A stretch of DNA of 38,924 bases from the IMG/VR virus record IMGVR_UViG_3300035182_001043, positions 1 to 38,924 of that record. One strand, written 5' to 3'. Position 1 is the stretch's first letter, and every line of letters starts with the position of its first letter. Below are positions 1 to 38,924 of the stretch, in pieces. The stretch is from a virus. Both the position numbers and the translations under genes were made by a program. Below the pieces are notes generated by a model, which worked only from the letters and a program-made list of their open reading frames with translations, was not told the origin of the DNA and did not search any database.

Positions 1-3000
1 CATAGTACATTTGATTTAATTAAGCAAAAGCATATTGAAATAAATGAAGAAGAAAGTGAAACAGAAGGAGATACAACTGGTACTGAAGTTGTTGAAGAAA
101 CAGAAAGATTTTCAGATAAAAAAGTAGGTGAAAAATCATTATTACAATTAGCTGAAAAAGAAACTCTTTACATTTTAAAAAGTCTATTTAAAATAGTTGA
201 TGGTAAAGAAGTAGAAGGGTCTTTAGGTTTTCCAGAATTAGTTGACTTTAGTAAAATATGGAATACAGTTACTAAGGTAATTGGAGGTGAAAAAGATCCA
301 GTTAAAATGTATCTTAAGCTTCAAGCTGCTATACCATTTTATCCAGAATTAGGGCAACTTGTAAATAAAAAATTTCCAGATCCAAGAAATATTAAAACAT
401 TACAAGAATTTAATATTAAAGCAGCATTTTGGCAAGATTTTAAAAAACCTTTAATAAGATATGTTCAATTAACAGTTGGTATAGATGAAGAAACAGATGA
501 TTATAAATCTGAAGTAACTGATGCATCAATTGAATTTAAAAATATTATAAATAGTTTTAAAAGTGCTTTTAATTCATCTGCAGAAACTAAATATATTAGT
601 AAGGGTGCTAACAATAAGTCAACATTAAAACTTGATGTCTTAATGAAAGCTTTTCCAGATGCTACATCTATTGGTTTACCTGCACAACAAATTGAATTTA
701 TTAATGCATTAGGAGTTGGTTTACAAGATTTAATAAGTATTAAAAATGAATTAACTGGTAAATCAAGAGATTATGGAATTCCTTATATACATCAAATTGC
801 AAAAGAAGTTTATACATTAAGTAAGGATCCAAAACTTACTAATGATAAACAAAAAGAATTTATTAAAAAATTCATAGATAATCCTATTGATGCATTATAT
901 GGTAAAATACCTGCAGGAATACATGAAAATACTAACAGTCAAAAATCTGTAATACAAAAATTAGCAAGATTACAAAATAAATTTGGTAATAATTATGCAA
1001 GTTTTAGTGTATTAAATGCAGAGAAAAAACTTGTAAATGAATTTACAGAAGATAGTACTGTTACTATGATAGTTGATGCCATTAACAATGTTGAAAAAGG
1101 TAGAGATTTATGGACGAAGCCAGAATATAGTTATATGAGTTACCTCAATCCATTAATAAATGGTTTTACTGAGCAATCACAATTACTTAAATCTATATTT
1201 AAAGTTGAAGAAAATACATGGGATAGAAAAAAAGATGGGAGGTTAGATCTTGTAATGGTATCTGGTACTCAAATAGTTAATGTTGATGGTGCTAATACTA
1301 CATCTCTTGATATTCATGGTAAATATATTCAAGAATTAAACATGATGTTAAAATCAGGTTTTCAAGAATTTATGAGACATGCTTCTAAGTCAGCTTCTTT
1401 TGGTATGAAGTCTACTAAAATAAAAAACTTATATGTTGATATAGATCAATTTAAACCAGGAGGAGATGCTGATCAATATGCTGTTGATAATATATTTTTA
1501 GGTTATATTCAAGCTGAATTAATTAGAATACAAAAAATAAGAGCTAATAAAGAAGAGTATAAAAAATATGTAGGTTATAATAGAGAAATTAAATCTGCAG
1601 ATGGTGAAACTGTTCTTGGAATGGCTGGTGAGTTTTTTACTGCATTTGATAATATATTAACTAAAGATACTAAGGAAGAAATAATTAAGAAAGTAAAAAA
1701 TGGTAAATTACTTGATTATTTAGAGTCAGACCCTAAATTAAAAGAAGATATAACTGAGCAAGTAATTGCATATTTTGAAAGACAGTCTAAGGATAATAAG
1801 AAAGATTTTCAAAAATCTAAATGGATTGACCCAGCATTAACAAATAGTTTAAAAAAGTTTGAATTATCAACAGATGATGAAGAAACAATGCTTATTAAAG
1901 CACATACAATGAATGCATGGATTCATAATTTTGAGACTGCTAGTTTAATATATGGTGATGTAGTACAATATAATCATGCTAAACAAGAGTTACATAAAAG
2001 AAATCCAGGTTCTACTTCAGGTGGTAGAGGATTTATGACTGATCAGTATACTCAAAACTTTTTAAATAGTGACTTAATTAAAAATACATCATATGGTGCT
2101 AAACTTGCAGCTATGGATGATTTTGGTAGTGATTATACTCCATTTAATTATAGTAGAACTTATAACACTGCAATTATGCAGGAAGTTAAAAGAAGTTCAG
2201 TATATATTAAAAATATTGAAAAAGGTTTAAGAGAAGATTATAAAAATAGAGGATTATCTCAATCTGAAATTGATTATAGATTAAAGAAAGAATTAAAACC
2301 ATATAAAGAAATGGAAGAAGGTGATGGTCAAGGTTATATAACTATTGATGCATACCGTCTATTAAGACTTGCTGAAAAAAACTGGTCATCTGAACAAGAA
2401 GATTTATTCCAAAAAGTAATTAGTGGTAAAGAAATTAGTACTGAAGATATAACACAAATCTTTCCTGTATATAAATTACAAAACTTTGGACATTTAGCTA
2501 ATACATCATTACCAGTTAACGCAATGCATAAATTTGCATTGATGCCATTAATTCCATCACTTATTGCTGGTTCTGATTTAGAGTCATTACATCATCAAAT
2601 GATGAAAAGTAATATACAATATGCTACATTCCAATCTGGTTCTAAAGTAGGTAGTATTACATCTCAAGTAGATAAAAATGGTAAAGCAGTAGCAGATCAA
2701 ATATATGATGATAATGGTACTCAAAAAACATTAAAATCAGATATTGCTTTTACTAAAAATACAATATACTTAGCATATCTTAAAAATGTTACAGCTGTTC
2801 CAATTAAATTAAAAGGTAAAACAGTATTCTCTACTCAGTTAAGAGCACTTATTCTTGAAGGTTTATATGAAAATGGTAAATTAGTTAATAAAGCATACAC
2901 ACCATTTGTTAAAGCATATGAAGATGCAGTTGATTCTTATACTGAAATACTAAAAACTGAATTATTAAATGAAATTGGTTATGAATATAAAGATGGTAAA

Positions 3001-6000
3001 TATGTTAGTGGTGATTTAACTAAATTCATGGATGTAGTTCAAAGAGAACTTACTAGAAAAGATTTACCAGAACATTTAATTGATTATATTCAAGTTGGTT
3101 CTAATAATGTTTTAACAAAAGATTTATCATTACACATGCTCTCAGGAGATATTGAAAAAATGATAACATCACTTGTTGAAAAAAGAATTGTAAAACAAAA
3201 AGTAAAAGGTGAAGCATTAGTACAAGTTGCTAGTTCAATGACTAATGGATTATGGGATTTAGGTTTTAAATTTGAAAAAGCTCAAGTTGCAGAAATAGAA
3301 AAATACTTAGGTACTAATAACTTACCTTTCTATAATCCAGAGTCTATAGATCTTAATGTTAAATATAAAGACTATACTAAAGAAAAACTTACTGAGGTTT
3401 TTAAAAGAAATAAAAACATATTAGAAGATCAAGCTAAATATTATACTGATAGAAATGCATATAACTTAAAAGTTGAAACTGATTATTTAGAAGCTGTACT
3501 TGCTGGTAAAAAACCAAAAGTAACATCAGTTCCAGGTAATACATCTGCAATGAAAGTTGCTATTGCATTACAAGGTGATTTTAAAAATCTTTTAAAACTT
3601 AAAGATCTTGATGGTGTAGAAATAGGTACAAGAAAAAGATTAAATGAATTAATTAAAGATGATGAATGGTTAAATAAAGATAATAACCGTAAATCTGTAA
3701 CTTTATCAGCTGTAAGAATCCCTGTACAAGGAATGAACTCTATGGAGTTTATGGAAGTATATGAATTTTTGGATCCAGCTGCAGGTTCTATTATTATTCC
3801 TCCATCAGAAATTGTTGCTAAATCAGGAGCAGATTATGATGTTGATAAGCTTACTACATTTATGCCTAATATAGATGCAGATGGTAATTATGTAACATCT
3901 AATATATCTGAGGAAACATTAAAAAAATTAATTGCAAATGCAGAATCTAAAGGTGATAAAGCTGAAGTAGTTAAATTAATTGCATTACAGAAAAAAGCAA
4001 TTGAAAATAGATTAATTGATTCTATCAGAGGTATATTACAACTACCTGATAATTATGCTACATTAGTAAGACCAAATGAAACTTACTTAATGAAAGATAT
4101 TGCAGATGACTTAGTAGATTCTTTACCTGAATATGGAAGATATAAAACTATTAGTCCAACAAATGTATTTGAAGTAGGTTATAATCTAGCTAAACATGAT
4201 TATAACATGACAGGGAAAGATGTATTAGGTATCATTGCTCTTGAAAATAAATTACATCCATTGTATACAGCATTGGGTGCTGCTCTACCAAAAACATATT
4301 ATGGCTCAGTTAAAAATCCAAAGACTAAAAAATATGAAGATGATACAAGTATAATTTATGAAATGAGATTATTACTTGATCATAATGAAACTGAAGATGG
4401 AAGAATTTCTTTATCAGGTATTAATAGTGTAGATGGCCAAGATAAAATAGCAGATTTATTCTCACACTTAATGAATGGTTCTGTGGATGTTGAGAAAGAT
4501 GCATGGATTTTCTTTATTCAAGCTAATAAAGAGCTTATACCAATGTTGTTGAATTTACTTAAAGCCGGTGTCCCAAAAAGAGATGCTGTTTATTTTATAT
4601 CTCAACCACTAGTAAAAGAGTATGCAAATCAACAAAGACTATATGATGGGGTTTATGCAAATCTTACAGGTAAAGAAACATTATCTGATGAAAATAAAAA
4701 ATATAATGCACTTTTAGATGTATTAAAACAAACTGATATCTCAGAAAGTATTTATAAAGCAAATAGAACAAGATTAAGTAATGCAATAAAAAGTTATAAT
4801 AAAGAAGCTAAGGTATCAGTAAAACTATCTGGTGTTACTAAACCATATAATACAACATTAAAAAGCTTAATTGCAGATATAAAAGCTGATAAAGTTAAAA
4901 TAAATGATATTGAACTAATTAACAGTTCTGAAACTGGTCCATTATTTAAAAGTATAATTGCTGATCCTAATAATGAGTTTTATCACCCAATGTCTACTCC
5001 AAATTATAAAGATGTTGTACTTGCAGCAACTGAAGGTATGGATAAATTTACAACAGCGGATTTAAAAGAGACAATGACTAATAATGATACTACAAGTCCA
5101 AAAGCCATTGCAATATTCTTACATTATGTAGAGTATGAAAAGCAAATAAAAGATATGTCTGATCTTAAAAGACAGTCAAATCCTGATACAGCTACTTCTA
5201 AAACCATACAGGAGATCATGCAAAGAAAAATTGGTTTAGATATTTTATCTGAGTCATCTAAAATAGATCAGAATTTAGTAAATAAATTAAGAAAAGAGTC
5301 CATATTAGGGTCTTTCTTTGATAATGTTATTACTCAAGATTTAGTAGAACCTATATTTCCTTTAACAAATGATAAAAGAGTATCTGCTTACTTACTTAAT
5401 TATATTAAGAATAATAATATTCCACTTAAATTTGGTGAAGGAGCAGATGGTATAACTAATTTTATCACATCATTTAAACAAGCAATGGTAAATTATATTT
5501 ATCAAAATAGATTAAATGAGATAATAACTACTAAAGAACCATTTCCAGGGGTACCAGAATTATTTAGTACTTTAAATCACCAAGCCTATGTAACTAGGTT
5601 TATGAGTATGATAAGTGAAAACAGTCACTTAAAAGAATTGTATTCAGTACTAGAACAAATTACTGATGTACCGGTAAATATATTTAATTCTAAAAATTTC
5701 TCAATTAAAGATCAGGTATTTGATGCTAAAACTAAAAAACTTACAATTAAAGGTCAGATATCTGTATTAACATTAAACAATAAACCTGTAGTAAAAGGAG
5801 CACTATCTGATAGTTATCATCAAAACTTAATTGATCTTGCTGATGAAAATGTTATTAAAGTAAAAGATCCAGTTAAGAATAAAAAAATATCAGACATGTT
5901 TAAGATATTACCTCTTATATCTATTTTACAGAATGGAGTAGGTAACACTAAATATGGTCTTAGTTATGTTCTTCCTGATACTACATACTTTGAAATAGTA

Positions 6001-6132
6001 GAACCAGCATCTAGAGAATTTATTGCTAATAAGATGACTACATCTACTTTTGATAAAATTGCAGCTATGATGATTGCTAATGACCCTAATGTAAATAATT
6101 ACATTGATGATTCAATTATAAATAAACCTACT
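1..6132 (+). other. Module: crAss-type two-barrel (DPBB) RNA polymerase domain
   Basis: The key motif is D-Y-D-V-D at 3832-3846, preceded by SGA and followed by KL. It matches the D-x-D-x-D metal site of the beta'-like double-psi barrel (DFDID in phi14:2 gp66, as I recall it). About 40 residues upstream is RIPVQGMNSMEF (about 3718-3755), in the place where cellular beta' has its R-x-P segment. The beta-like barrel probably lies earlier, around YATFQSGSKVG (about 2623-2655), which carries the lysine expected of that barrel. The order beta-like then beta'-like on one chain fits the YonO/QDE-1-like polymerase class. About 2,044 codons are visible and the N-terminus is missing, so the size agrees with gp66-like enzymes (about 2,100-2,200 aa). 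The metal site is certain by eye; the barrel limits are inference. Confidence 0.85.
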
Positions 6133-9100
6133 ACCCAATCATCTACTAGTGTTAATAGTAATGATATATATTCTCAATTAGAAAATAAAAATGTAGTTAT
6201 TTCTAACATTAAAACTAAAGATGGTAAATATGATAGAGATGCTAATATAAAAGAAGCAAAAGCTAACAATAGAGTTTATACTATGGAAGTGGTTAGTGAT
6301 GTAAATAGTTTTAGTAATCCTTGGGCTTCTTTTAATAGAACAGGTACTATAAAAACTAATACTACTAAAGAAGCAGTTATAAATTATATTGATTGGTTAA
6401 CTACTGATAAATTTAAAGATGTTAAACCAAAAAGAAAAGCATTTATTCTAGATGTTTTAAAATCAGGTAAATTAAAAGGAAGACAACTTCAATATTATGC
6501 AGAACTTGGAGAACCGTCTCATGCTACAGCTTTAGATTATTTAATTAATAAATATGATTGGAATACTCAATCATCTACTAGTGTTGAAAAAGTAATCTAT
6601 AATAATAATGGTTTAACAATTATAGAAAATGGATTATCTGAAGATTTTGCAAAAAGTATTGTGCCTGATTTAGTAAAACAAATAGAATCACAATCTTATA
6701 AACAAACTAAATCTGCAAGTTCTTATGACTTTGGGACTAGATGGACTAGAATGAGTGATAATTTATCAAAAGATATTAAATTATCTTTTGTTACAGGAAT
6801 GCAATTATCTGGTTATGAGATAACAAAAGAAAAATTAGATAGATGGGTAACTGGTGAAACAGGAGCTAAGTTAGGATTACCTCCATATGGATATAATACA
6901 TTAGATCAGTATGGAGAACCTTTAAGAAGTATACCATCTTCTGTAATTATTGCTGCATCTAATGCTACAGGAATAGATTTATCTACATATCAAGCTTCAT
7001 ATAATTCTGTTTATGATAATAATGATCAAGGTAATTTAATATTTCATCAAGATAATACTGAACAAATATCTGATGCTCCAATTGTAACTTTATCTTTAGG
7101 TTTACCAATGAGATTTATTGCATTTGAATTAAAAAATGAATCAGATTATTCTTTAAATAATCAATTTATAGCAGATCCAACAATACCAACAGCATCAACT
7201 GCTTTGAAAAATAAATTTATTAATCCTTATGGTGATTCTTTTATATTATCAGATAGAACAGTATTAGTATTTGATGGTAAAAATAGAAATGTTGGTCATA
7301 AAATTCAATTTGATCCAACTTTAAAAGGAACAATGCCTGATTATTTACCAGAAATTAATGTTAATAAAGCATTTACAGGATTAAATCAAGAAGACAGATA
7401 TGTTAAAACAAAAGACTATAGAACTGTATTAACATTAAGAAAAATTAAAGATGATGGAATAGCTATTAAAAAGTTTGATAAAAACACTCAAGAATTAATT
7501 TATAAAAATGGAGTATATTCTATTATAAGTAAATCTAGTACTCAATCATCTACTAGTGTTGAAAGAGAATATACACCTGAAAATATAACAACATTAAAGT
7601 CAAATGAAGTATTTGTATTTGGTTCTAATAATAGAGGTGTTCATGGATTAGGTGCAGCTAAAAATGCTGTAACTAATTTTGGTGCAACATATGGTCAAGC
7701 ATCTGGTCAACAAGGTAAATCATTTGCTGTAATAACTAAAATGTATCAAAATAATAAACTTACTAAATATAATGAGCTTACTGATGAAAATAAAGTTTTA
7801 ATGGATAAAATGACTATTAAAGATTTAAATGATTTAAGACTTGCTGCAATAGAAAATCCAAATAAAAAATATTATGTAACAGAAATAGGTACAAAACTTG
7901 CAGGTAGATCAGTAGAACAAATGAAAGATTTGTTTACAAGAATGAATAATAAGTTTGGTATACCAGATAATATCATTTTACCACAAGTATTTGAAGTTAG
8001 AACTACTCAATCATCTACTAGTGTTAATATATATTCCACTGATGATAATGGATTTAAAAAACTAAGTAATCTATTAAATGGACCTGTAAAAGCTACACTT
8101 AATGGTAAAGAACGCACATTTAAAACAATAGAGCATTTATATCAAGTTAAAAAAGCATTATTTGCTGGAGATACAGAAACGGCTAATAAAATATTTGCAG
8201 CTACTACCGGTTTTGATGCTCAAAAGTTATCTAAAACTATTAAAAATTTAGACTCTGCAGCATGGGATGAGATTTCTAGTCAAGAGTTAGAATCAGCAAT
8301 GAGATTAGGTTTTGAGCAAAATCAAAGTGCTAAAGACTTATTATTAAGTACAGGAACTGCAAACCTTACACATAAGGCTAGATTTAATCTTGGTAAATGG
8401 GAAACAGTATTTCCAGAAATTCTTATGAAAATAAGAGAAGAACTTAAATCTACTCAATCATCTACTAGTGTTAATCCATTAGTAGAAGCAGGAGTAAAAT
8501 CTACAGATATGTATGGTAATGCTGCTAAAGATATTCAAATGGCAGATGAATCCACTCAATTTATTGGATTTGGTACTATAATGAAAGAAGGTAATGTATC
8601 TTCTACAGATAAGTATGCCAAAGCTTGGGGTAATAAAGCTAATACAGGAATGTATACATCTGGTGATACTATAATGGTATCAGGAAGTGGTAACTTTGGT
8701 AGAGGTGGTGTAGATAAAACAGAAGAAGCTAATACTATTAAAAAGACTCTTACAGAAAAATATAAACCATTATTAGATAAAGCTATAGTTGCTGGTGCAT
8801 CTTTTAGAATAGGAAATCAATATTCTAAAGGTAATTTATCAGATCAATTAGTTGCAGATTATTTACAAAAAAAGGGTTATATTGAAGAAAAACTTAATGG
8901 TTATTCTAGATGGACATCTCCTATTAAACCTACTCAATCATCTACTAGTGTTGAAGCTAATGTTAATAATGAATATACTTTTAACTCAGCAGGTGTTTTA
9001 GAATATAAAAATAAAGAGCTTGATGCTTTGTTTTTAAAATTAAGAGATGATTATAAAATACCTAGTATTCCTAAAACAAAAGAAGAAACAAGATTATTTA

Positions 9101-12100
9101 GATTAAAAAATGCATTATTGCTTACAAAAAATGCAGATACAAATGATTATATAAAAATACCTGATTTATCAGATATATTTACTAATACAGAAGCTTTTAA
9201 CTTGTATAAACAATATTTAAACAACATTGATAATTCTAGAGATTTATTTATTGAAAGATTTAAAAATGATTCTTTATTTAATCAAGAAATAGAATTTAGA
9301 CCTGGTGAAATTAAAAAAGGATATGAGTTTATACCTAAAACAACAAAAGCATTAATTGAACAGCCAAGTATTTTGTTTTTAGAATTGTTTAAAAATGCTG
9401 GTTTAAAACCTGGTACAGATGCTCATAGAGCTAAATTATTAGATTTAAAGCAATTTATAGACTCTAAAACAACAGTTTTATTAAATAATGCTATTAAACT
9501 TGAGTTAGGTATTATTACTACTCAATCATCTACTATTGTTAAAGAAGGAGTACAAGAACTATTTGATTCTAATCCTGAATTAGCTAATCAAGTATATGAA
9601 GCTTTAGGGTTTGAAAATAACGTAAGTTTTCCTAATGAAAAAGAAGTAAATAATACACTATCAAAAATAAATGAAAAACATAATTTAGGTAATATAAAAG
9701 ATTTAGATGGTGAACCTATTTACAACTTTGAAGATACAATATTACAAAATGGTTTAAATAATTTAACAACCAATCAATGGGGTCATGGTGCTACAAGAAC
9801 TCCTTATGGTAAAGAAGGTGTTGAAAGATTAGAAAATATATTATTAAAAAAAGATGAATTTACAGGAGATTTTGGACCAATTGCTGGTACAGAGTTATCT
9901 AAAACTAATAAGTATGCTAATACTTGGGAATCTGGAAGATTTATAATAACAAGGAATGATGATAATTTTTATAACAAAGATGGTAGTTTAAATACTGATG
10001 GTATTGAAATTATATTAAATACAAGTTTTGAACCTTATGGTAATTATTTAGCCGCTAAATATTCTAATGTTATTTTTAAAGATGCTTTTGGTAATATTAT
10101 AAAACCTTTAAGTAAAATAACCCCACAACAAAAACAACAAGCATTACAAGCTTATTCTCAATATTTAGATACAACTAATAATCCTAGTATAGAAGGATTT
10201 AAAGAGTTTGTTACTACTAAATCAGTAATTGAAGCTCCAGTAGTTAACATAGAAACTGTAATTAAAAAAAGAGAACCCGTATCATTTAATAATACTTTTA
10301 CATTCAGTGATGGTGTTGAAATTAAAACAGGAATTATAAGATTAAATGATCAACAAAAAACAGCTTTACAATTAGCAGTTGATGCCATTAATAATAAAAA
10401 TACAAAATTTGTTTTAAAAGGTTATGCAGGTACTGGTAAAAGTACAATAGCTAAATTTATTCAACTATATGTAAATACTAAACATAGAGGTATGAAAGAA
10501 ATAGTATATGCAGCTCCTACACATAAAGCATCTATAAATTTATTAGTACAATTAATTAGAGGAGGTGTTACTAAAAAACCTATAACAACTGCTAAACTTT
10601 TAAATAAACGTAAAATTGATGGTGTTTTTAAACCAGGTCCTAAACATGCAGTACCATATAATGGAATTTTAATAATAGATGAGTCATCTATGATTGATAA
10701 TTCTGATTATAAAGATATTTATGAATTAGCACAAAATAATAATACTACAGTAATATTTATGGGTGATCCTGCTCAATTACCTCCTGTAGGAAATAGTTCA
10801 TTAAGTCCAGCATTAACATACACTAAAGATAATGAAGGATATGAATTAACAGAAATCATGAGACAAAAAGAAGATAATCCTGTTTTAAAAATTATTACTG
10901 ATATTAGAAATAATATGTTAGACATAAAGGAAAATTTTAATTTTGATACAGAAATAAATAGTGAAGGTGAAGGTGTTAACTTTATGAAAAATAAAACTGA
11001 TTTTAACAATAAAATACTTGATACTTTTACTTCAGAAGAATATAAAAAAAACCCATCACATGCTAAAATAATTGCATACTCAAATGTAGCTGTTGCACTT
11101 TATAATCAACAAGTTTTTTCAAGTATGAATATTGATGAACCATATGGTGTAGGATCAACTCTTATGGGATATGAGCAATCAAGTGCTGATAGTATAATTA
11201 ATAATGGACAAGATTATACTGTAATAAGTAATGAGTATCAAGAATCAAAAGATACCTTATTATATAATGAATACATTAAAGATACACAACACACTATTCA
11301 AGGAAAACTTTCTGGATGGAATATAGAAGTTAAAAGAGTTTTTAATGAAAGTGATACTGAGTTAATAAAAAAACATAGTCCTCAATTATTAAAACCTGAA
11401 AAAGTTTTTATTATAAATCCACGTGATCCTAATAATTTAAATATATTGATGCAATTTTTAGCTGTAAAAAAAGCTATTAATGATAATACTATTTCTTGGA
11501 AATATAGAGCTGACGCTAGTTCAGAATTAGATTCATTATTTAGTAAGTATCAATTTCCAGATGATGTATTATTATTTGAAAATCAGCCTACTACTATGTC
11601 AATTCTTAAAAAAGAAAATCCTGAGTTATTTAAAATAGAAGCAGATGGTACATCAAAATATGAAAAATTAAATATTAAAGCATTCTTTAGTAAAAATATT
11701 GATTATGGTTATGCTGTAACAGCACATAAAGCTCAAGGTTCTACATATGATAATGTATTTGTAGATTATGAAAATATGGATAACCCAGCTAATGATAAAA
11801 TTATTAACTATAATGGTAAACCATATGGTAATGAAAGAAATATGTTAAAATATGTTGGTTTAAGTAGAACATCTAAAATGAATTATGTTTATACTAATAA
11901 AGCATCTGATGTTTCTAATGTTGCACCAATAGTAAAACAACTACAAGAAGAGGTTCCTGATGGACAAACTGGAGAAGTTATAGTTAAAAAACCTGAACCA
12001 GAAGAAAGAAATATAAAAGTAGATAACTATACTTTTACACTTAAACCAGATGGTAAAATATATTATGGTAACGGTAATGAATTAACTGATCAAACTATTA

Positions 12101-12300
12101 AAAATAAAGTGTATATTAGAAAAGAATTAGAAGATGGTACATTAAGAGTGTCTACCTTTGATAAAAAAAATTATTATGTACTTTCAGATAATAGAATAAT
12201 TGATTCTGGAAAAACTGTAGGTGATGAAACAGTATCTGATCCTTTAACTAAACAAAGAATATTAGACGCAGCTTCACTTTATAAAAAATCTTGTCCTTAA
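1..12300 (+). CDS. Giant virion RNA polymerase polyprotein with effector modules and SF1B helicase (5' partial)
   Basis: The frame is open from base 1, so the true start lies upstream; 4,099 codons plus TAA are visible. Domain order by window codon: crAss-type two-barrel RNA polymerase (1-2044), DUF4326-like (2052-2188), AlkB-like (2196-2513), A1S_2505-type macro-like (2521-2668), NADAR (2676-2817), an unnamed recurrent phage domain (2825-2977), an orphan (2985-3173), a pre-helicase region, and an SF1B helicase with a small C-terminal tail (3181-4099). The heptapeptide TQSSTSV lies at each of the seven junctions. Crassvirales polymerases of this family (phi14:2 gp66) are packaged, ejected and transcribe early genes; that role is inferred here from homology. 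The fused modules suggest that other enzymes enter the cell with the polymerase. Whether the protein is cleaved at the joints is unknown. There is no frameshift, internal stop or intein. The next gene starts 11 nt downstream. Very sure of one reading frame and of the RNAP and helicase ends. Confidence 0.95.
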   Translation, partial: HSTFDLIKQKHIEINEEESETEGDTTGTEVVEETERFSDKKVGEKSLLQLAEKETLYILKSLFKIVDGKEVEGSLGFPELVDFSKIWNTVTKVIGGEKDPVKMYLKLQAAIPFYPELGQLVNKKFPDPRNIKTLQEFNIKAAFWQDFKKPLIRYVQLTVGIDEETDDYKSEVTDASIEFKNIINSFKSAFNSSAETKYISKGANNKSTLKLDVLMKAFPDATSIGLPAQQIEFINALGVGLQDLISIKNELTGKSRDYGIPYIHQIAKEVYTLSKDPKLTNDKQKEFIKKFIDNPIDALYGKIPAGIHENTNSQKSVIQKLARLQNKFGNNYASFSVLNAEKKLVNEFTEDSTVTMIVDAINNVEKGRDLWTKPEYSYMSYLNPLINGFTEQSQLLKSIFKVEENTWDRKKDGRLDLVMVSGTQIVNVDGANTTSLDIHGKYIQELNMMLKSGFQEFMRHASKSASFGMKSTKIKNLYVDIDQFKPGGDADQYAVDNIFLGYIQAELIRIQKIRANKEEYKKYVGYNREIKSADGETVLGMAGEFFTAFDNILTKDTKEEIIKKVKNGKLLDYLESDPKLKEDITEQVIAYFERQSKDNKKDFQKSKWIDPALTNSLKKFELSTDDEETMLIKAHTMNAWIHNFETASLIYGDVVQYNHAKQELHKRNPGSTSGGRGFMTDQYTQNFLNSDLIKNTSYGAKLAAMDDFGSDYTPFNYSRTYNTAIMQEVKRSSVYIKNIEKGLREDYKNRGLSQSEIDYRLKKELKPYKEMEEGDGQGYITIDAYRLLRLAEKNWSSEQEDLFQKVISGKEISTEDITQIFPVYKLQNFGHLANTSLPVNAMHKFALMPLIPSLIAGSDLESLHHQMMKSNIQYATFQSGSKVGSITSQVDKNGKAVADQIYDDNGTQKTLKSDIAFTKNTIYLAYLKNVTAVPIKLKGKTVFSTQLRALILEGLYENGKLVNKAYTPFVKAYEDAVDSYTEILKTELLNEIGYEYKDGKYVSGDLTKFMDVVQRELTRKDLPEHLIDYIQVGSNNVLTKDLSLHMLSGDIEKMITSLVEKRIVKQKVKGEALVQVASSMTNGLWDLGFKFEKAQVAEIEKYLGTNNLPFYNPESIDLNVKYKDYTKEKLTEVFKRNKNILEDQAKYYTDRNAYNLKVETDYLEAVLAGKKPKVTSVPGNTSAMKVAIALQGDFKNLLKLKDLDGVEIGTRKRLNELIKDDEWLNKDNNRKSVTLSAVRIPVQGMNSMEFMEVYEFLDPAAGSIIIPPSEIVAKSGADYDVDKLTTFMPNIDADGNYVTSNISEETLKKLIANAESKGDKAEVVKLIALQKKAIENRLIDSIRGILQLPDNYATLVRPNETYLMKDIADDLVDSLPEYGRYKTISPTNVFEVGYNLAKHDYNMTGKDVLGIIALENKLHPLYTALGAALPKTYYGSVKNPKTKKYEDDTSIIYEMRLLLDHNETEDGRISLSGINSVDGQDKIADLFSHLMNGSVDVEKDAWIFFIQANKELIPMLLNLLKAGVPKRDAVYFISQPLVKEYANQQRLYDGVYANLTGKETLSDENKKYNALLDVLKQTDISESIYKANRTRLSNAIKSYNKEAKVSVKLSGVTKPYNTTLKSLIADIKADKVKINDIELINSSETGPLFKSIIADPNNEFYHPMSTPNYKDVVLAATEGMDKFTTADLKETMTNNDTTSPKAIAIFLHYVEYEKQIKDMSDLKRQSNPDTATSKTIQEIMQRKIGLDILSESSKIDQNLVNKLRKESILGSFFDNVITQDLVEPIFPLTNDKRVSAYLLNYIKNNNIPLKFGEGADGITNFITSFKQAMVNYIYQNRLNEIITTKEPFPGVPELFSTLNHQAYVTRFMSMISENSHLKELYSVLEQITDVPVNIFNSKNFSIKDQVFDAKTKKLTIKGQISVLTLNNKPVVKGALSDSYHQNLIDLADENVIKVKDPVKNKKISDMFKILPLISILQNGVGNTKYGLSYVLPDTTYFEIVEPASREFIANKMTTSTFDKIAAMMIANDPNVNNYIDDSIINKPTTQSSTSVNSNDIYSQLENKNVVISNIKTKDGKYDRDANIKEAKANNRVYTMEVVSDVNSFSNPWASFNRTGTIKTNTTKEAVINYIDWLTTDKFKDVKPKRKAFILDVLKSGKLKGRQLQYYAELGEPSHATALDYLINKYDWNTQSSTSVEKVIYNNNGLTIIENGLSEDFAKSIVPDLVKQIESQSYKQTKSASSYDFGTRWTRMSDNLSKDIKLSFVTGMQLSGYEITKEKLDRWVTGETGAKLGLPPYGYNTLDQYGEPLRSIPSSVIIAASNATGIDLSTYQASYNSVYDNNDQGNLIFHQDNTEQISDAPIVTLSLGLPMRFIAFELKNESDYSLNNQFIADPTIPTASTALKNKFINPYGDSFILSDRTVLVFDGKNRNVGHKIQFDPTLKGTMPDYLPEINVNKAFTGLNQEDRYVKTKDYRTVLTLRKIKDDGIAIKKFDKNTQELIYKNGVYSIISKSSTQSSTSVEREYTPENITTLKSNEVFVFGSNNRGVHGLGAAKNAVTNFGATYGQASGQQGKSFAVITKMYQNNKLTKYNELTDENKVLMDKMTIKDLNDLRLAAIENPNKKYYVTEIGTKLAGRSVEQMKDLFTRMNNKFGIPDNIILPQVFEVRTTQSSTSVNIYSTDDNGFKKLSNLLNGPVKATLNGKERTFKTIEHLYQVKKALFAGDTETANKIFAATTGFDAQKLSKTIKNLDSAAWDEISSQELESAMRLGFEQNQSAKDLLLSTGTANLTHKARFNLGKWETVFPEILMKIREELKSTQSSTSVNPLVEAGVKSTDMYGNAAKDIQMADESTQFIGFGTIMKEGNVSSTDKYAKAWGNKANTGMYTSGDTIMVSGSGNFGRGGVDKTEEANTIKKTLTEKYKPLLDKAIVAGASFRIGNQYSKGNLSDQLVADYLQKKGYIEEKLNGYSRWTSPIKPTQSSTSVEANVNNEYTFNSAGVLEYKNKELDALFLKLRDDYKIPSIPKTKEETRLFRLKNALLLTKNADTNDYIKIPDLSDIFTNTEAFNLYKQYLNNIDNSRDLFIERFKNDSLFNQEIEFRPGEIKKGYEFIPKTTKALIEQPSILFLELFKNAGLKPGTDAHRAKLLDLKQFIDSKTTVLLNNAIKLELGIITTQSSTIVKEGVQELFDSNPELANQVYEALGFENNVSFPNEKEVNNTLSKINEKHNLGNIKDLDGEPIYNFEDTILQNGLNNLTTNQWGHGATRTPYGKEGVERLENILLKKDEFTGDFGPIAGTELSKTNKYANTWESGRFIITRNDDNFYNKDGSLNTDGIEIILNTSFEPYGNYLAAKYSNVIFKDAFGNIIKPLSKITPQQKQQALQAYSQYLDTTNNPSIEGFKEFVTTKSVIEAPVVNIETVIKKREPVSFNNTFTFSDGVEIKTGIIRLNDQQKTALQLAVDAINNKNTKFVLKGYAGTGKSTIAKFIQLYVNTKHRGMKEIVYAAPTHKASINLLVQLIRGGVTKKPITTAKLLNKRKIDGVFKPGPKHAVPYNGILIIDESSMIDNSDYKDIYELAQNNNTTVIFMGDPAQLPPVGNSSLSPALTYTKDNEGYELTEIMRQKEDNPVLKIITDIRNNMLDIKENFNFDTEINSEGEGVNFMKNKTDFNNKILDTFTSEEYKKNPSHAKIIAYSNVAVALYNQQVFSSMNIDEPYGVGSTLMGYEQSSADSIINNGQDYTVISNEYQESKDTLLYNEYIKDTQHTIQGKLSGWNIEVKRVFNESDTELIKKHSPQLLKPEKVFIINPRDPNNLNILMQFLAVKKAINDNTISWKYRADASSELDSLFSKYQFPDDVLLFENQPTTMSILKKENPELFKIEADGTSKYEKLNIKAFFSKNIDYGYAVTAHKAQGSTYDNVFVDYENMDNPANDKIINYNGKPYGNERNMLKYVGLSRTSKMNYVYTNKASDVSNVAPIVKQLQEEVPDGQTGEVIVKKPEPEERNIKVDNYTFTLKPDGKIYYGNGNELTDQTIKNKVYIRKELEDGTLRVSTFDKKNYYVLSDNRIIDSGKTVGDETVSDPLTKQRILDAASLYKKSCP
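6133..6153 (+). repeat. Module joint 1 (TQSSTSV)
   Basis: First of seven copies of the 21-bp in-frame joint; ACC is used for the first Thr instead of ACT. The remaining 18 nt are CAATCATCTACTAGTGTT, as in copies 2-6. It separates the RNA polymerase from the DUF4326-like module. Confidence 0.95.
6154..6564 (+). other. Module 1: DUF4326-like domain
   Basis: 137 residues between joints 1 and 2. The pattern NPWASFNRTGTI, then a helix, then LKGRQLQYYAELGEPSHA and LIN resembles DUF4326 (N-P-[FW] near the start; L-x-G-K-x-L-x-Y-Y...SHA...L). That family is often encoded in phages next to NADAR/macro-type nucleotide or ADP-ribose proteins and has no settled enzymatic role that I know of. The family assignment is by motif memory. 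Confidence 0.6.
6565..6585 (+). repeat. Module joint 2 (TQSSTSV)
   Basis: Exact consensus copy of the 21-bp joint, in frame; flanks are Trp-Asn before and Glu after. It separates the DUF4326-like and AlkB-like modules. Confidence 0.95.
6586..7539 (+). other. Module 2: AlkB-like 2-oxoglutarate/Fe(II) dioxygenase
   Basis: 318 residues with the ordered AlkB signature. The iron ligands H-Q-D are at 7045-7053 within GNLIFHQDN, the distal His is at 7297-7299 (VGHKI), and the 2-oxoglutarate-binding Arg is near 7438-7440 in YRTVLTLRK. The preceding YNSVYDNNDQGNLI segment matches the conserved N-x-Y strand before HxD in AlkB proteins. Known members reverse N-alkyl damage in DNA or RNA; the substrate here is unknown. 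The usual family size is about 200 aa, so roughly 100 residues at the N-terminal side (including KLGLPPYGYNTLDQYGE) and the 60-residue C-terminal tail are extra. Confidence 0.8.
7540..7560 (+). repeat. Module joint 3 (TQSSTSV)
   Basis: Exact consensus copy of the 21-bp joint, in frame, preceded by Ser-Ser and followed by Glu. It separates the AlkB-like and macro-like modules. Confidence 0.95.
7561..8004 (+). other. Module 3: A1S_2505-type phage macro-like domain
   Basis: 148 residues. The opening NEVFVFGSNNRGVHGLGAA, followed by FGATYGQASGQQGKSFAV, is characteristic of a phage/bacterial family I remember as A1S_2505-like, which appears related to macrodomains (a strand, then G-S-N, then a glycine-rich loop with G-x-G-A-A). 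The C-terminal part (YYVTEIGTKLAG...IILPQVFEV) also matches. Macro-type folds bind or hydrolyse ADP-ribose derivatives; catalytic activity here is inference. Confidence 0.7.
8005..8025 (+). repeat. Module joint 4 (TQSSTSV)
   Basis: Exact consensus copy of the 21-bp joint, in frame, preceded by Arg-Thr and followed by Asn. It separates the macro-like module and the NADAR module. Confidence 0.95.
8026..8451 (+). other. Module 4: NADAR (YbiA-like) domain
   Basis: 142 residues with the NADAR layout: LSNLLNGPVKATLNG, then RTFKTIEHLYQVKKALF (E-H-L-Y-Q core), a helical middle with W, LGFEQN, LLSTGTANL and the terminal LGKWE. NADAR proteins act on ADP-ribose conjugates; some remove ADP-ribose from guanine in DNA and protect against DarT-like toxins, and YbiA acts on riboflavin intermediates. 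Placement next to a macro-like module favours ADP-ribose chemistry. The substrate is not determinable from sequence. Confidence 0.85.
8452..8472 (+). repeat. Module joint 5 (TQSSTSV)
   Basis: Exact consensus copy of the 21-bp joint, in frame, preceded by Lys-Ser and followed by Asn. It separates the NADAR module from the unnamed phage module. Confidence 0.95.
8473..8931 (+). other. Module 5: recurrent phage domain with Rossmann-like look
   Basis: 153 residues. The segment FIGFGTI...SSTDKYAKAWG, then ANTGMYTSGDTIMVSGSG, with a later AIVAGASFRIGN and a terminal YSRWTS, is a layout I recognise from many phage virion or methylase-associated proteins, but I have no family name. The alternating strands with G-rich turns suggest a small nucleotide-binding alpha/beta fold. 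Function unknown. Confidence 0.5.
8932..8952 (+). repeat. Module joint 6 (TQSSTSV)
   Basis: Exact consensus copy of the 21-bp joint, in frame, preceded by Lys-Pro and followed by Glu. It separates module 5 from the orphan module. Confidence 0.95.
8953..9519 (+). other. Module 6: orphan helical domain
   Basis: 189 residues, rich in Leu, Lys, Asp and Asn, predicted mostly helical by eye (ELDALFLKLRDDYKI, LFRLKNALLLTKNA, PSILFLELFKNAGL). No motif that I recognise. Being flanked by joints marks it as an independent module. Confidence 0.4.
9520..9540 (+). repeat. Module joint 7, variant (TQSSTIV)
   Basis: Last copy of the 21-bp joint, in frame. One base differs from consensus, AGT to ATT, changing the second-last residue from Ser to Ile; it is the only copy with an amino-acid change. 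It separates the orphan module from the helicase half. Confidence 0.95.
9541..12297 (+). other. Module 7: SF1B (Dda/RecD-like) DNA helicase with N-terminal extension
   Basis: The helicase core has Walker A GYAGTGKST (10420-10446), motif Ic-like AAPTHKAS, Walker B IIDESSM (about 10672-10692), motif III GDPAQLPP (10762-10785), EIMRQ, motif V AVTAHKAQGSTYDNV (about 11713-11757) and motif VI YVGLSRTS (11851-11874). This is the Dda/RecD2/Pif1-type 5'-3' helicase pattern. The N-terminal 250 residues contain TNQWGHGATRTPYG, TELSKTNKYANTW and IEIILN, vaguely like an ADP-ribosyltransferase layout, then PQQKQQALQAYSQYL. After the helicase is a charged linker (KPEPEE) and about 100 residues of short beta strands. 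A helicase fused to a virion polymerase could help DNA entry or promoter melting; that is inference. Confidence 0.85.
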
Positions 12301-23353: not shown

Positions 23354-24529
23354 CTATTTGACAGCCATCTTTACTACTTGTGGATTCATCATTAGCTTAG
23401 AAAATTTAGGCTTATTGCCTGCTAATAACTCTTTCACTAAATAGTATTTAAGATCATTAGTGAATGCGTCACAGTCTGTAGTAAGTTTTACTAATCTGTT
23501 TATCATAGCATCACTTATAGAATGATTAGCTGCATGTGTCAATGAATAATTTATAAGTCTTGTAGTAATAATACTACTAATATCAGCTCTAAATTCATCT
23601 CCAGTACCTATTGCTCCATTTAATGCTCCAACTACATATGCTTCATTTACATTAGTCATAATATCAGCTGGAGATATAATTTTATCCATCTTGTTATTAA
23701 TAAACATAGTGAACATACTAGAGAATTCAGGTCCTACTGAACCTTCTCCAATCATTTGAATTAACGGTAACTGCTCTTCAAACTTCTCAATAGAACTAAT
23801 AGCATTAAAAAAAGTAGTAATAGCTCTTGGATTAACTTTTTGAGTTACTACTTCTGGATTCATCAACATAAAATTGATACATCTACCATCAATTCCTACT
23901 TGCTCAGCCCACTTAGCCCATACATTAATATCAAATTTAATTTCAACTGATATAAATCTAGTCTTTTGAGCTACATCTAATGCAGTTACATTATAATCTC
24001 CATTGTCTGGATTTGAAGTTAATATTATGTGCCAGTTCTTTGGCAATTTCCAAGAAATATATTCCTGCTGATCAATAAGCTCCATAGTTGCTTGCATAAA
24101 TCTATGATCAGCTCTAGTATAATCATCTAAAATCAAGAAACCACCTTCACCTTGCCCTTGTATCCATTCTGGAGCAGCATGTGACATTCTACTACTATTA
24201 GTAGGTTTATATCTATTCTTAATATAAGTTTCCATTAAAGATTCTTGAACCCATTTAGTAGCACCATCTTCTCTAACCATCTCAAATTCTTTAAATGGAA
24301 AACCAATTAAATCACCTAACTCTTCAATCTGTGAAAGATTTAATTTAATAATATTCATACCCATCTCAATTGCTAATTGCTTAACAGCTGAAGTCTTTCC
24401 AAGACCTGCATCACCTTCTACATTTATTGCAACAGGTACTTTACCTTCAGCTTGGATGTATTGATTATTACCAACTATGTGTTTTAAAAACCCTTTTAAC
24501 TCTTCTACATTTAATTGAACTTGACTCAT
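23354..24529 (-). CDS. MoxR-like AAA+ ATPase
   Basis: 391 residues. Walker A is GDAGLGKTS near residues 39-47. The next strand is MGMNIIKLNLSQIEELGDLIG as in MoxR proteins; Walker B is GGFLILDDYTRAD, sensor 1 is IILTSNP, and DVAQKTRF holds the arginine-finger region. MoxR ATPases work with von Willebrand A proteins as chaperone-like remodelling pairs, and such a protein is encoded 13 nt upstream. The pair is co-transcribed and ends at the hairpin at 23268-23296. The client is unknown. Confidence 0.9.
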   Translation of the reverse strand: MSQVQLNVEELKGFLKHIVGNNQYIQAEGKVPVAINVEGDAGLGKTSAVKQLAIEMGMNIIKLNLSQIEELGDLIGFPFKEFEMVREDGATKWVQESLMETYIKNRYKPTNSSRMSHAAPEWIQGQGEGGFLILDDYTRADHRFMQATMELIDQQEYISWKLPKNWHIILTSNPDNGDYNVTALDVAQKTRFISVEIKFDINVWAKWAEQVGIDGRCINFMLMNPEVVTQKVNPRAITTFFNAISSIEKFEEQLPLIQMIGEGSVGPEFSSMFTMFINNKMDKIISPADIMTNVNEAYVVGALNGAIGTGDEFRADISSIITTRLINYSLTHAANHSISDAMINRLVKLTTDCDAFTNDLKYYLVKELLAGNKPKFSKLMMNPQVVKMAVK

Positions 24530-24542
24530 CTTTTTTAATTTT

Positions 24543-25733
24543 TTAAATTTCTAACTTAATAACTTTTCCGGGAAGTTCCGTGTTCATATAAGATTGCTCA
24601 GACAGCACCCACAATATAGGAGCTTTTGGCTTTACATTAGTATAACACTCACCGTCAGTAAAATACACTAAGCTAGTATATTTTCTTATATTCTCATTAT
24701 AATATTCAAGGACGGGATCAAATTCTGTTCCACCTCTTCCATATATCTCAATTTCATTTTTACCTTTATAAGGTTCTATGCTTTTGATAGCAGTGTCACA
24801 TTGTACTATGGTAATATCAACACCTTGTTTATAGATGTGTAATATCTCATTCATAAATTCATGTAACTCTTGATCACATACTGATCCTGAAGTATCAATA
24901 GCCAACAACATATGTTGTTTCATTTTAATCTTAAGACCAGGATTCTCAGAATATCTTTTATTCTCTTTTCTCCTTATCTTTTTAGTATACACTTTAGATG
25001 ACACACCAGTAAATCTTCTCATATATCCTCTCCAATCAAATTTAGCAGGCTTAATTTCTTCCATTTCAAGTAAACCCTCAATTTCTCCAGGAATATTACC
25101 TCTTTTCTTTTCAGTCATCTCCTTAGCATCATTGAGAATCTTATTCAATTGTTTCTCAATTAGTTTTTGCTCAGCTTCAGTCATGTCTTCAAAATCAGCC
25201 CAAGTAGGATGATCACTGGCCATTTCATCTCCAGCATCCATTTGATCAGCTAACTTATCAAAATTATCATCACCACTTGTGCCATTTTTGTCTTTATCTT
25301 CTTTAGCCTGTTGTAGTTTATCATAATAATATCTACAACCTGCTTTTCTATCAAGATTTAAATCAGGATAATCATCTATATTAATACCACCTTTTGGTAG
25401 TAATTCATCTGAAATATACTGATTAATCTCCATATCCATAGCTATATTAGCTAGTTTTTTATCACTAAACTTAAAATACATAGTAAGATGACCAAATGCA
25501 ATGTGAAGTAACTCATGCTTGAGAAGGCCTAGCCTATGATCCTCAGATAAACTTGTCCAGAAATCTTCATTAATTGTAAGTTGATAATTAATATTATTTT
25601 TACTTACACCAGCAGTAGGAACTATTTTATTATTCCATACTTTATTTAACATGATTAAAAAGAATCCATAATAGGGCTCCTTTAACATCAAGTCTTTACT
25701 GGTTTTTGCTAAACTATCTTCTCTATTCTTCAT
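24543..25733 (-). CDS. Zincin-like plus VWA-domain protein (DUF2201-type), MoxR partner
   Basis: 396 residues. The N-terminal domain has H73-ELL-H77-IAFGH, a zinc metallopeptidase-like HExxH with a following G-H. A charged middle (DKDKNGTSGDDNFDKL) follows. The C-terminal von Willebrand A domain has the MIDAS D-T-S-G-S (in MLLAIDTSGSV), a Thr in GRGGTEFDP and Asp in YFTDGE. This architecture is the DUF2201 predicted metallopeptidase family. Together with the adjacent AAA+ gene it makes a MoxR-VWA module. Its 5' end overlaps the 135-aa gene by 11 nt. Protease activity is untested. Confidence 0.85.
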   Translation of the reverse strand: MKNREDSLAKTSKDLMLKEPYYGFFLIMLNKVWNNKIVPTAGVSKNNINYQLTINEDFWTSLSEDHRLGLLKHELLHIAFGHLTMYFKFSDKKLANIAMDMEINQYISDELLPKGGINIDDYPDLNLDRKAGCRYYYDKLQQAKEDKDKNGTSGDDNFDKLADQMDAGDEMASDHPTWADFEDMTEAEQKLIEKQLNKILNDAKEMTEKKRGNIPGEIEGLLEMEEIKPAKFDWRGYMRRFTGVSSKVYTKKIRRKENKRYSENPGLKIKMKQHMLLAIDTSGSVCDQELHEFMNEILHIYKQGVDITIVQCDTAIKSIEPYKGKNEIEIYGRGGTEFDPVLEYYNENIRKYTSLVYFTDGECYTNVKPKAPILWVLSEQSYMNTELPGKVIKLEI

Positions 25734-36999: not shown

Positions 37000-37215
37000 T
37001 TATATATCAATGTGTATTAAAAAACTAATTTTTCTTGATAGGTTTTGATATGTTTCACGTAACCAAACTGTTAAATCATCATCTGATTCTTTACCTTTAC
37101 TTTCCATATGACATTCAATGTATGAATGTACATTTACATTTTTGAATATTGGATTTTTTCTTAATTTTACAGGTATATCTGATAACGGTATCACTGCTTT
37201 TGTAATTGTTTTCAT
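37000..37215 (-). CDS. Small hypothetical protein
   Basis: 71 residues, MKTITKAVIPLSDIPVKLRK, then FKNVNVHSYIECHMESKGKE and VWLRETYQNLSRK. No family recognised. Overlaps its upstream neighbour by 4 nt, so probably translationally coupled to it. Confidence 0.7.
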   Translation of the reverse strand: MKTITKAVIPLSDIPVKLRKNPIFKNVNVHSYIECHMESKGKESDDDLTVWLRETYQNLSRKISFLIHIDI

Positions 37216-37478
37216 AATTTTTCTAATTCAACTTCTTTTTTTTCCACTTCTCTTGTTTCAGCTAATAATCCTTTTATAGGAAGAAATCTATTAGCATTAT
37301 AATATTCATAAGGAAAACATCCATCAAGATTTATTTCTTCTAACTCATATCCATATGTGTTAGCTTGAATACCCATATTCATTACTCTTACCACTGTGTA
37401 GAATTGATCTTCTACTGGCCATTGACTTAAAGGAATCTTATTGGGTTTATTTTTTGAATTAATGCATTTGACTTTCAC
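37212..37478 (-). CDS. Small phage protein (KCI...IP.SQW type)
   Basis: 88 residues with GTG start at 37478 (MKVKCINSKNKPNKIPLSQW); no ATG near. FYTVVRV, GYELEEINLDG and FPYEYYNANRFLP follow. I recognise the overall layout (K-x-x-C-I...IP-x-SQW...YTV...LEEI...FPYEY...RF) from many Bacteroidota phages and prophages; it looks like a small beta-barrel fold. Function unknown. Overlaps the ClpS-like gene by 20 nt. Confidence 0.75.
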   Translation of the reverse strand: MKVKCINSKNKPNKIPLSQWPVEDQFYTVVRVMNMGIQANTYGYELEEINLDGCFPYEYYNANRFLPIKGLLAETREVEKKEVELEKL

Positions 37479-37707
37479 CTATCTCTACATTTAATTCTAG
37501 ATCAGATAATTGATTATATATATCAAAGATGTCATCAAATGCACCAGACATAATATCATATGAACCTTTATTATCTACTATTACAGCACACTGCTCAGCT
37601 TGATCAGGTGAGTGCTTACATATTTTAATGAGACAAGCTATGATATATAAAAAATCATGGTTGTCATCATTATACAATGTTATTTTATGTGTTTTTTCCA
37701 AAACCAT
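37459..37707 (-). CDS. clpS: ClpS-like Clp protease adaptor
   Basis: 82 residues. LYNDDNHDFLYIIACLIKIC (the N-D-D start of ClpS), SPDQAEQCAVIVDNKGSYDI (A-E-x-C/x-A...x-x-x-x-G) and the terminal LELNVEI fit the compact ClpS core. ClpS delivers N-end-rule substrates to ClpAP; a phage copy could redirect host proteolysis. The usual ClpS length is about 100 aa; here the flexible N-terminal extension is nearly absent, so it may bind the N-degron but not activate ClpA normally. Moderately sure of the fold; activity unknown. Confidence 0.7.
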   Translation of the reverse strand: MVLEKTHKITLYNDDNHDFLYIIACLIKICKHSPDQAEQCAVIVDNKGSYDIMSGAFDDIFDIYNQLSDLELNVEIGESQMH

Positions 37708-37723
37708 GTCTTTATATATTAAT

Positions 37724-38236
37724 TTACAAATTATTTTCTTCAGTTCCTACTATTATTGTGTTACCTACTTTATTCATAGAATCAACAATATCAGTAAAAC
37801 CTTTACCATAAGGATCTATATAGTCTGTATAAGACTTAAAGTAACCTTTACTAGTTAATATTTCTATATTCTTAATCAATAAGCTCATTTTTGATTTATT
37901 ATCAACTTCAAGCTGGATTAAATCCCATCTTGCTGATGCAATTTTAGCCAAAAATAAGTTTAATCTAGTATTAAATTCATCTTTTATGTGAATTTTATGA
38001 CTGTAATCATCAAAAATCTGTATCAGGGTCATTAAAGCATTAGCATCAGTATCACCAAATACACTCATTGGTTCTTTAATATACTCTTCAGACCATTCAT
38101 GCCATTCAGATACATCTTTCTTTAATGCATACTTAAACTTCTTATTCTTTTTCATTTCATCAATATCATAAAGAGCACTAGATATCTTTACCAGTGCTCT
38201 TATGAATTTGACATTGTCTTGATCATATTCTGCCAT
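37724..38236 (-). CDS. Hypothetical protein downstream of SF2 helicase
   Basis: 170 residues from the ATG at 38236 (MAEYDQDNVKFIRALVKISS); an in-frame GTG two codons upstream is less likely. Helical throughout, charged, with LIQIFDDYSHKIHIKDEFNT and a Gly-rich end. No motif recognised. It is 7 nt from the helicase stop and could be a helicase partner. Confidence 0.75.
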   Translation of the reverse strand: MAEYDQDNVKFIRALVKISSALYDIDEMKKNKKFKYALKKDVSEWHEWSEEYIKEPMSVFGDTDANALMTLIQIFDDYSHKIHIKDEFNTRLNLFLAKIASARWDLIQLEVDNKSKMSLLIKNIEILTSKGYFKSYTDYIDPYGKGFTDIVDSMNKVGNTIIVGTEENNL

Positions 38237-38243
38237 AATCACT

Positions 38244-38924
38244 TCATAAACTAATATTAAAATTTTTCCATTCTATTTTATCCTGATCAAATCCTGATAA
38301 TGCTTCAGTAACCCAACTCTTATCAATAGTATCTACATAACATAGTATATGAATAGTAGCTGTCTCATCAACTGCAAGACGTAAACATCTTCCAATACGT
38401 TGTGAGGCCTTACGCTCATTACCATATGCATGTAGAATAATGCATTGTCTTAGTTCAGGAATATTAATACCCTCACTTAACTGCAATACACATGATAGTT
38501 TAGTTATTTCACCTGACTTAAACATTTCTAGATTCTCATTAGACTCAAGATTATTACTATGATAGCTATTTACGCATAACACATCAGCCTGTTCTTGAGT
38601 ATTAGCAAAAATAATAAATTTAGATTTTATATGATTTGATAATATCTTAGTATATTTTTCTTTACTTGGAAATTCCATCATTGCTTTCATTCTCATAATT
38701 CTAGCTATCTGTTGCTCTTTACCTGGTCTAGACATATCTATTCTATTACACCAATACTGATAATTAGCTACTTCAGTAGTAAAGAATTGATTATTCTTAC
38801 TACCTGCTTTTACATTTTTATTGACGTTATCTAGTTTAATCTCATGTACAATGATTTTATAATCATTTAAGATATTATCATTAACAGCATCATCAGTAAG
38901 ATATTCATAACATATAGGATAGAA
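38244..38924 (-). CDS. SF2 DNA helicase, C-terminal part (5' partial)
   Basis: 226 residues are visible and the frame stays open to the window edge, so the N-terminal ATPase lobe lies beyond base 38924. The C-terminal RecA lobe has FIIFANTQEQADVL (motif IV region), VLQLSEGINIPELRQCIIL (motif V) and ASQRIGRCLRL (motif VI, Q-x-x-G-R-x-x-R). This fits the SSL2/SNF2-like helicases seen in Crassvirales replication blocks. Fork remodelling or transcription-coupled roles are possible. Confidence 0.85.
   Translation of the reverse strand, partial: FYPICYEYLTDDAVNDNILNDYKIIVHEIKLDNVNKNVKAGSKNNQFFTTEVANYQYWCNRIDMSRPGKEQQIARIMRMKAMMEFPSKEKYTKILSNHIKSKFIIFANTQEQADVLCVNSYHSNNLESNENLEMFKSGEITKLSCVLQLSEGINIPELRQCIILHAYGNERKASQRIGRCLRLAVDETATIHILCYVDTIDKSWVTEALSGFDQDKIEWKNFNISL

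Follow-up and report, generated by a model that had tools for sequence, protein, structure and literature searches.

A divergent ClpS-fold protein without the N-terminal extension in a phage lineage with crAss-like features

The 82-residue product of a minus-strand open reading frame in a 38.9-kb virus record (the whole stretch of DNA analysed here, referred to as the window) is a genuine ClpS-fold protein. Its gene is a core gene of the phage lineage, as seen at loci collected through two of its neighbours, a helicase gene and the small gene p88. We favour, at roughly even probability, the reading that this protein is a phage N-recognin acting on host ClpC or ClpA, with altered amino-group binding and altered hand-off, which either delivers or captures N-degron proteins. 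If this is true, a crAss-like lineage controls regulated proteolysis of its host through a core gene, and natural tail-less ClpS variants, in which Asp has repeatedly replaced the amino-group His, directly test which parts of an N-recognin serve reading and which serve hand-off. Such variants may also offer further N-terminal binders from which amino-acid readers could be engineered.

Identification of the ClpS fold

The clpS-like gene (37459..37707, minus strand; ATG at 37707, stop codon ending at 37459) encodes a ClpS core that lacks an N-terminal extension; on the plus strand the same interval is riddled with stop codons. Pfam PF02617 (ClpS) matches residues 5–61 with 44.3 bits (gathering cut-off 23, E = 1.5e-11). 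The AlphaFold model (15-sequence alignment, mean pLDDT 89.8) has the predicted order strand-helix-helix-strand-helix-strand, and Foldseek with this model returns 38 PDB matches at E <= 0.001, each a ClpS chain or a malarial ClpS-domain fusion. The best structural match is ClpS of Mycolicibacterium smegmatis [9ayn, 9b1p; VIA-align to 9ayn_B: Z 15.4, r.m.s.d. 0.9, 77 residues], which shows no difference in length and 16% sequence identity. Superposition on E. coli ClpS with a bound Phe peptide [3o2b; Z 14.6, r.m.s.d. 1.0, 78 residues] is nearly as close, and L7/L12 gives Z 9.5, well below the values for solved ClpS structures. The original prediction of a phage gene with a ClpS core is borne out by the Pfam score and the 9ayn_B match, and the comparison with ClpS–N-degron complexes that it had proposed as a check gave the 3o2b match.

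Other sequence comparisons are weaker. The NCBIfam ClpS equivalogs are matched far under their cut-off (19.5 bits against 160), and phmmer with the single window sequence found no significant ClpS among PDB sequences (best ClpS chain E = 0.22), the top rank going to unrelated ZMYND8 chains (E = 0.07). With a profile of the phage family, E falls to 0.0011 for the malarial ClpS domain and to 0.03 for E. coli ClpS. PF02617 and the fold match, set against the sub-cut-off NCBIfam and phmmer results, thus identify a divergent member of ClpS that is recognised by profile and fold. The NCBIfam scores, the non-significant single-sequence PDB match and the AT-rich DNA are what would be expected if the ORF were a chance one or misannotated; the probability of this is negligible, since a relative is encoded in 129 of 198 pattern-matched viral stretches, the gene is under purifying selection and conserved at helicase-anchored loci, and the ClpS model is confident.

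Conservation and gene neighbourhood

A pattern scan of IMG/VR found 28 close relatives among 31 stretches; the 129 of 198 stretches come from a wider scan. Among the best 80 of these 129 relatives, the helicase lies upstream of clpS within 4 kb at 69 of the 75 loci with room, and matches to p88 begin 220–260 bases past the clpS start at 75 of the 80. A helicase-anchored sample (best 80 of at least 508 relatives, from 599 stretches) encodes ClpS at 75 of the 78 loci that extend downstream for 1500 bases or more, including a truncated copy (L165); one of the three loci without it (L158) is on a contig that carries ClpS further along. In a p88-anchored sample (best 80 of 162 relatives, from 210 stretches), whose query alignment was built from p88 copies themselves found next to clpS, ClpS is directly upstream of p88 at 77 of the 78 loci with room, with an identical 19-base offset in 75. 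Within the window subclade dN/dS has a median of 0.22 and a maximum of 0.37 (65 pairs, 0 < dS < 1.5), and this median indicates purifying selection on clpS.

The conserved upstream gene is present in the window as the C-terminal part of the helicase (Helicase_C; 38244..38924, minus strand), which continues beyond the window end. Between it and clpS lies the gene for a 172-residue protein with no assigned function (37724..38242, minus strand); it occurs in the window subclade and a few others and is absent from most of the best 80 relatives. On the other side of clpS, p88 (37212..37478, minus strand; 88 residues, GTG start) overlaps the clpS 3′ end with its start. The p88 prediction is a small β fold with a low-confidence C-terminal tail. 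The window copy matches Pfam DUF4528 below cut-off only, a relative's copy matches nothing in Pfam, and a PHROG match of unknown function has E = 0.02. Foldseek of the p88 model gave nothing significant (best E = 0.38, SH3 folds) and tblastn of a p88 relative against named phages gave no match.

The tight clpS–p88 pairing and the usual position of clpS in the replication block (helicase, DnaB, UDG) would suit a repurposed ClpS fold that forms a complex with p88 in phage replication or transcription, independently of Clp. The kinship of the ClpS fold to L7/L12 (Z 9.5) points the same way; L7/L12 binds other partners. We regard this as unlikely, as the protein lies above the ClpS gathering cut-off, has ClpS as its best match and mostly retains the NDD motif.

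The N-degron pocket

According to PMC12493166, Asn47, Asp49 and His79 of Caulobacter ClpS touch the amino group of the peptide, and Met53 and Met75 are in the pocket. At the aligned pocket places window ClpS has Asn13, Asp14, Asp15, Phe19, Ala41 and Asp45. The original prediction turned on the N-degron-binding pocket residues, and these are kept in part. Asn and Asp as amino-group ligands and a hydrophobic pocket are present, with both Asp residues of the NDD motif [codons N13-D14-D15, 37663..37671, minus strand; N34-D35-D36 in E. coli; residue 15 is variable in relatives]. The His ligand (E. coli H66, Caulobacter H79) is absent and its site is occupied by Asp45 (GAT, 37573..37575, minus strand), as placed by HMMER, which aligned the family profile with E. 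coli ClpS chains without gaps, and by a MAFFT alignment.

Compared with E. coli ClpS (1mbu, 3o2b), the N-recognin of ClpAP, window ClpS has the fold and the Asn-Asp-Asp motif in common at ~17% identity. Besides the change from His66 to Asp45 it has Phe for Met40, Ala for Met62 and, past strand 2, a segment of reduced length. Glu79 and Lys84, which contact ClpA in E. coli, are not recovered in the alignment, the segment being shorter and aligned with gaps there.

Variation in the lineage was followed in 129 unique sequences pooled from every sample, leaving out rows that were over half gaps or had no residue at position 66 (E. coli numbering throughout); the samples overlap, contain near-copies and each took at most the best 80 loci. 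Position 34 is Asn in 127 (gap in 2) and position 35 is Asp in 126 (Asn in 1, gap in 2). Position 36 is Asp in 87 of 129, the rest having N, S, K, E, H, P, A or a gap. Position 40 is Phe in 86 and Tyr in 38, and position 62 is Ala in 120. At position 66 there are 84 His, 40 Asp, 4 Asn and 1 Glu. On trees of 77–83 columns from which column 66 was excluded, parsimony needs at least 8 changes at position 66 among 77 sequences (56 His, 21 other), 4 of them forced by well-supported branches, and at least 11 changes among the 129 sequences, 2 of them forced. In the 77-sequence tree window ClpS falls in a 14-row set that is all Asp (support 97/85).

The clpS gene of L039, which is on the same contig as L010, is a mosaic. 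Its 5′ half resembles His-type relatives and its Asp-bearing second half is identical to that of the window. Its p88 (87%) and p150 (81%) are like those of the window, and its helicase, UDG and DnaB are only 48–61% like theirs; the pattern suggests that the 3′ half of clpS was exchanged along with p88, or that the assembly is chimeric.

The change from His to Asp has a cellular precedent. Leptospira interrogans ClpS1 shows this replacement too, as Asp62, and its Met40 gate is also aromatic, with Tyr36; unlike window ClpS it is cellular and has a 22-residue N-domain (PMC12493166). The same source reports that ClpS1 binds ClpA with a Kd of 0.44 µM and inhibits it.

The missing extension

The original prediction that the usual N-terminal extension is missing holds. 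Six residues precede strand 1 in window ClpS, against 27 in E. coli, and no ATG, GTG or TTG occurs in frame among the 13 codons back to the preceding stop. Counted from the nearest ATG, the first-strand column is preceded by 6 residues in 53 of 54 unique lineage sequences and by 7 in the remaining one; an earlier in-frame ATG is present in a few relatives (e.g. L065, L078, L087). What is absent is the disordered segment for the unfoldase pore. In E. coli ClpAPS structures the extension occupies the ClpA channel, and delivery stops when its entry is blocked (PMC9663308). Since window ClpS offers the unfoldase no such segment to grip, hand-off must differ from that in E. coli.

The loss of the part that the unfoldase pulls for delivery (PMC9663308) could also mark a protein that delivers nothing. 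Such an inhibitor would fill the N-domain of ClpC or ClpA, exclude host ClpS and other adaptors and shield phage proteins, its N-degron binding being vestigial. Replacement of His in 45 of the 129 unique sequences is in keeping with this, as is the inhibition of ClpA ATPase and of SsrA-tag degradation by the Asp-bearing Leptospira ClpS1 (PMC12493166). Positions 34 and 35 are however near-invariant, which docking alone does not require, and according to PMC12493166 the E. coli extension itself suppresses ATPase, so that an extension-less core should inhibit less. We consider pure inhibition possible, though rather improbable.

The phage lineage and its Clp partners

By the distant homologues of terminase and capsid in its long relatives, the lineage is classed as crAss-like. 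Homologues of the crAss001 terminase were found in 7 of 16 long records and of its capsid in 7 of 16; every match falls within the 12 records of this lineage, at 23–26% identity. The window record itself has neither the terminase nor the major capsid gene region. Its replication block is crAss-like (cf. crAss001) and consists of DNA polymerase, Toprim primase, AAA_24, DnaB, UDG and helicase, the polymerase being called by PHROG, with Pfam family B below cut-off. The window DNA has no match among named phages. Shine-Dalgarno-like motifs (GGAG, GAGG or AGGA) were found just upstream of 0 of the 29 window gene starts examined; their absence is expected for Bacteroidota.

Each of the 12 long lineage records carries exactly one copy of ClpS. 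ClpP was found in 0 of the 12 and a Clp N-domain in 0 of the 12, so any Clp partner would be that of the host. In a single Bacteroides control genome ClpP was matched and ClpS was not.

A transferase-like protein in related phages

One of the 12 long lineage records encodes a 224-residue protein that matches Pfam ATE_C with 28.8 bits (cut-off 25); its score of 25.7 bits against the NCBIfam arginyltransferase equivalog does not reach the cut-off of 252. In PDB, every match to a profile of 16 phage relatives up to E = 0.006 is an ATE1 arginyltransferase (best 2.9e-5); ORC2 follows at 0.92. Relatives are encoded in 50 of 51 matched IMG/VR stretches; an example of the gene is at L240:1405-2079 (minus strand), and it is also present in L241-L247. 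On these profile matches the protein is possibly an arginyl/leucyl-tRNA-protein transferase-like enzyme, a putative writer of N-degrons. A tblastn search of 50,697 named phage records with the transferase gave no match, and a Leu/Phe transferase was found in 0 of the 16 long records.

The transferase was not found in the window record. Of 31 records searched, made up of the window, 28 more from its lineage and 2 from a second phage ClpS group, 7 carry it, counting the query's own record. It is also present in 14 of 42 records of a larger set, 7 of those 14 having been included because they were found with the transferase. Conversely, ClpS is encoded in 4 of 15 records found through the transferase; the other 11 are mostly fragments, four of them being 91–187 kb long, and two of these four carry the transferase at the very contig end. 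The ClpS–transferase pairing is therefore not obligate. In 10 of the 11 records with both genes, the two are separated by 10–13 kb and lie on opposite strands; in the eleventh, G034, each is at a different end of the contig.

Contigs of at least 60 kb that had been picked for their length, when the transferase was not yet known to be frequent, carry it in 6 of the 14 cases with His-type ClpS and in none of the 8 with Asp-type ClpS (Fisher p = 0.051; the records share descent). A strict rule by which Asp-type ClpS excludes the transferase is broken by G033 and G035: of the four ClpS in records found through the transferase, the two from these records (L301, L302) are Asp-type. Asp-type ClpS may thus still serve an N-degron function.

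Proposed function

In the favoured reading, the phage ClpS would dock on the N-domain of host ClpC or ClpA and compete with any host ClpS. Free N-termini would be read in the pocket, where Asp45 rather than His would help to grip the amino group, and specificity would be altered at the Met40 gate (Phe or Tyr) and at Met62 (Ala). Captured N-degron proteins might be handed over by means of another handle, for which p88 is a candidate, or retained in a dead-end complex; in both cases the phage would reset the set of proteins that the host Clp protease destroys. The near-invariant Asn-Asp pair argues that reading of the N-terminus is kept, as docking alone need not keep it, and the lost extension argues that hand-off differs. 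The ATE/Bpt-like protein in 7 of 31 records and the precedent of the Asp-type Leptospira ClpS1 also speak for an N-recognin. Against it stand the missing amino-group His and E. coli-type delivery extension, the Glu79 and Lys84 contacts that are not recovered and the failure of most records to show the transferase. When M. tuberculosis ClpS was docked on ClpC1 in a model, a single Asp carried most of the weight (PMC6274998); if this is position 36, it also counts against the reading that Asp is present there in only 87 of the 129 lineage sequences.

The genes could also form a split N-degron system, with the ATE/Bpt-like protein of part of the lineage as writer, the extension-less, Asp-clamp ClpS as reader and p88 as a handle in trans to host ClpC or ClpA. 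The low-confidence, probably disordered tail of p88 would replace the pulling handle of a normal ClpS extension, and host ClpC or ClpA would degrade proteins chosen by the phage. We think this quite unlikely.

Relation to other phage ClpS proteins

Phage ClpS as an adaptor of host Clp is already in print for jumbo phages; several of these encode a ClpS whose likely role is to recruit targets for host ClpAP (Iyer et al., 2021; PMC7824862). Agrobacterium phage Atu_ph07 encodes ClpS (gp708) among seven Clp-family proteins (PMC6102473), in contrast to the 12 records of the present lineage in which ClpP and the Clp N-domain were not found. Searching 50,697 records by tblastn with two phage ClpS sequences gave matches in three phages of 635–642 kb only. 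The ClpS of the 636-kb phage LR756504 is 41% identical to the phage ClpS query and, unlike window ClpS, has an N-terminal extension and the His. The ClpS of an uncultured marine phage (A0A8D9CC24) matches window ClpS in fold, with 38% identity. A search of titles and abstracts in open-licence PMC found no paper on the ClpS of this lineage or on the His change in phages; a cyanophage expression paper names ClpS once (PMC5082946).

Among named phages that are crAss-like or related to these, the ClpS profile detected no ClpS across most of crAss001 and phi14:2, nor around the helicase of FpV21 and cr85_1 (best E = 0.37), and Pfam ClpS had no match over the complete records of crAss001, phi14:2 and FpV21. 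Foldseek gives weak matches in BFVD to A0A7M1RR25 (cr56_1, E = 0.0035) and A0A7M1RVY7 (cr1_1, E = 0.0079) of uncultured gut crAss-like phages; these may be distant ClpS or L7/L12-like proteins. Two pattern scans of genome contigs and one of plasmids, with patterns derived from the phage family, returned no cellular relatives.

The second phage ClpS group (37 loci of 49, found with a flavobacterial query) has a gene neighbourhood different from that of the window lineage. Among its 23 unique sequences, position 66 is His in 22 and Asp in 1, and Asp replaces Asn at position 34 in 7. The single Asp at position 66 (L138) is a separate change from His, which its close relatives L137 and L141 retain.

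Other features of the window

At 23354-25733 (minus strand) an AAA-like ATPase (Pfam below cut-off) lies beside a VWA/metallopeptidase protein (DUF2201 above cut-off); the early block of crAss001 also has metalloprotease- and VWA-annotated genes. In the second half of a giant ORF (1-12300, plus strand; 4099 residues, open at the 5′ end) a TQSST[SI]V spacer recurs seven times in nearly identical form. The spacers seem to part distinct domains, and the ORF is possibly a polyprotein with repeated linkers. The original prediction had suggested that fragments of the polyprotein interact with ClpS; this finds no support, as the residues that follow the seven spacers are N, E, E, N, N, E and K, never a primary E. 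coli ClpS residue (F, L, W or Y). An N-terminal E is of the kind modified by a Bpt-type transferase. Cleavage before the last V of the spacer would leave Val as the N-terminus, a residue bound by cyanobacterial ClpS2 (PMC7966870). Near its end the giant ORF resembles, by eye, a helicase-type ATPase.
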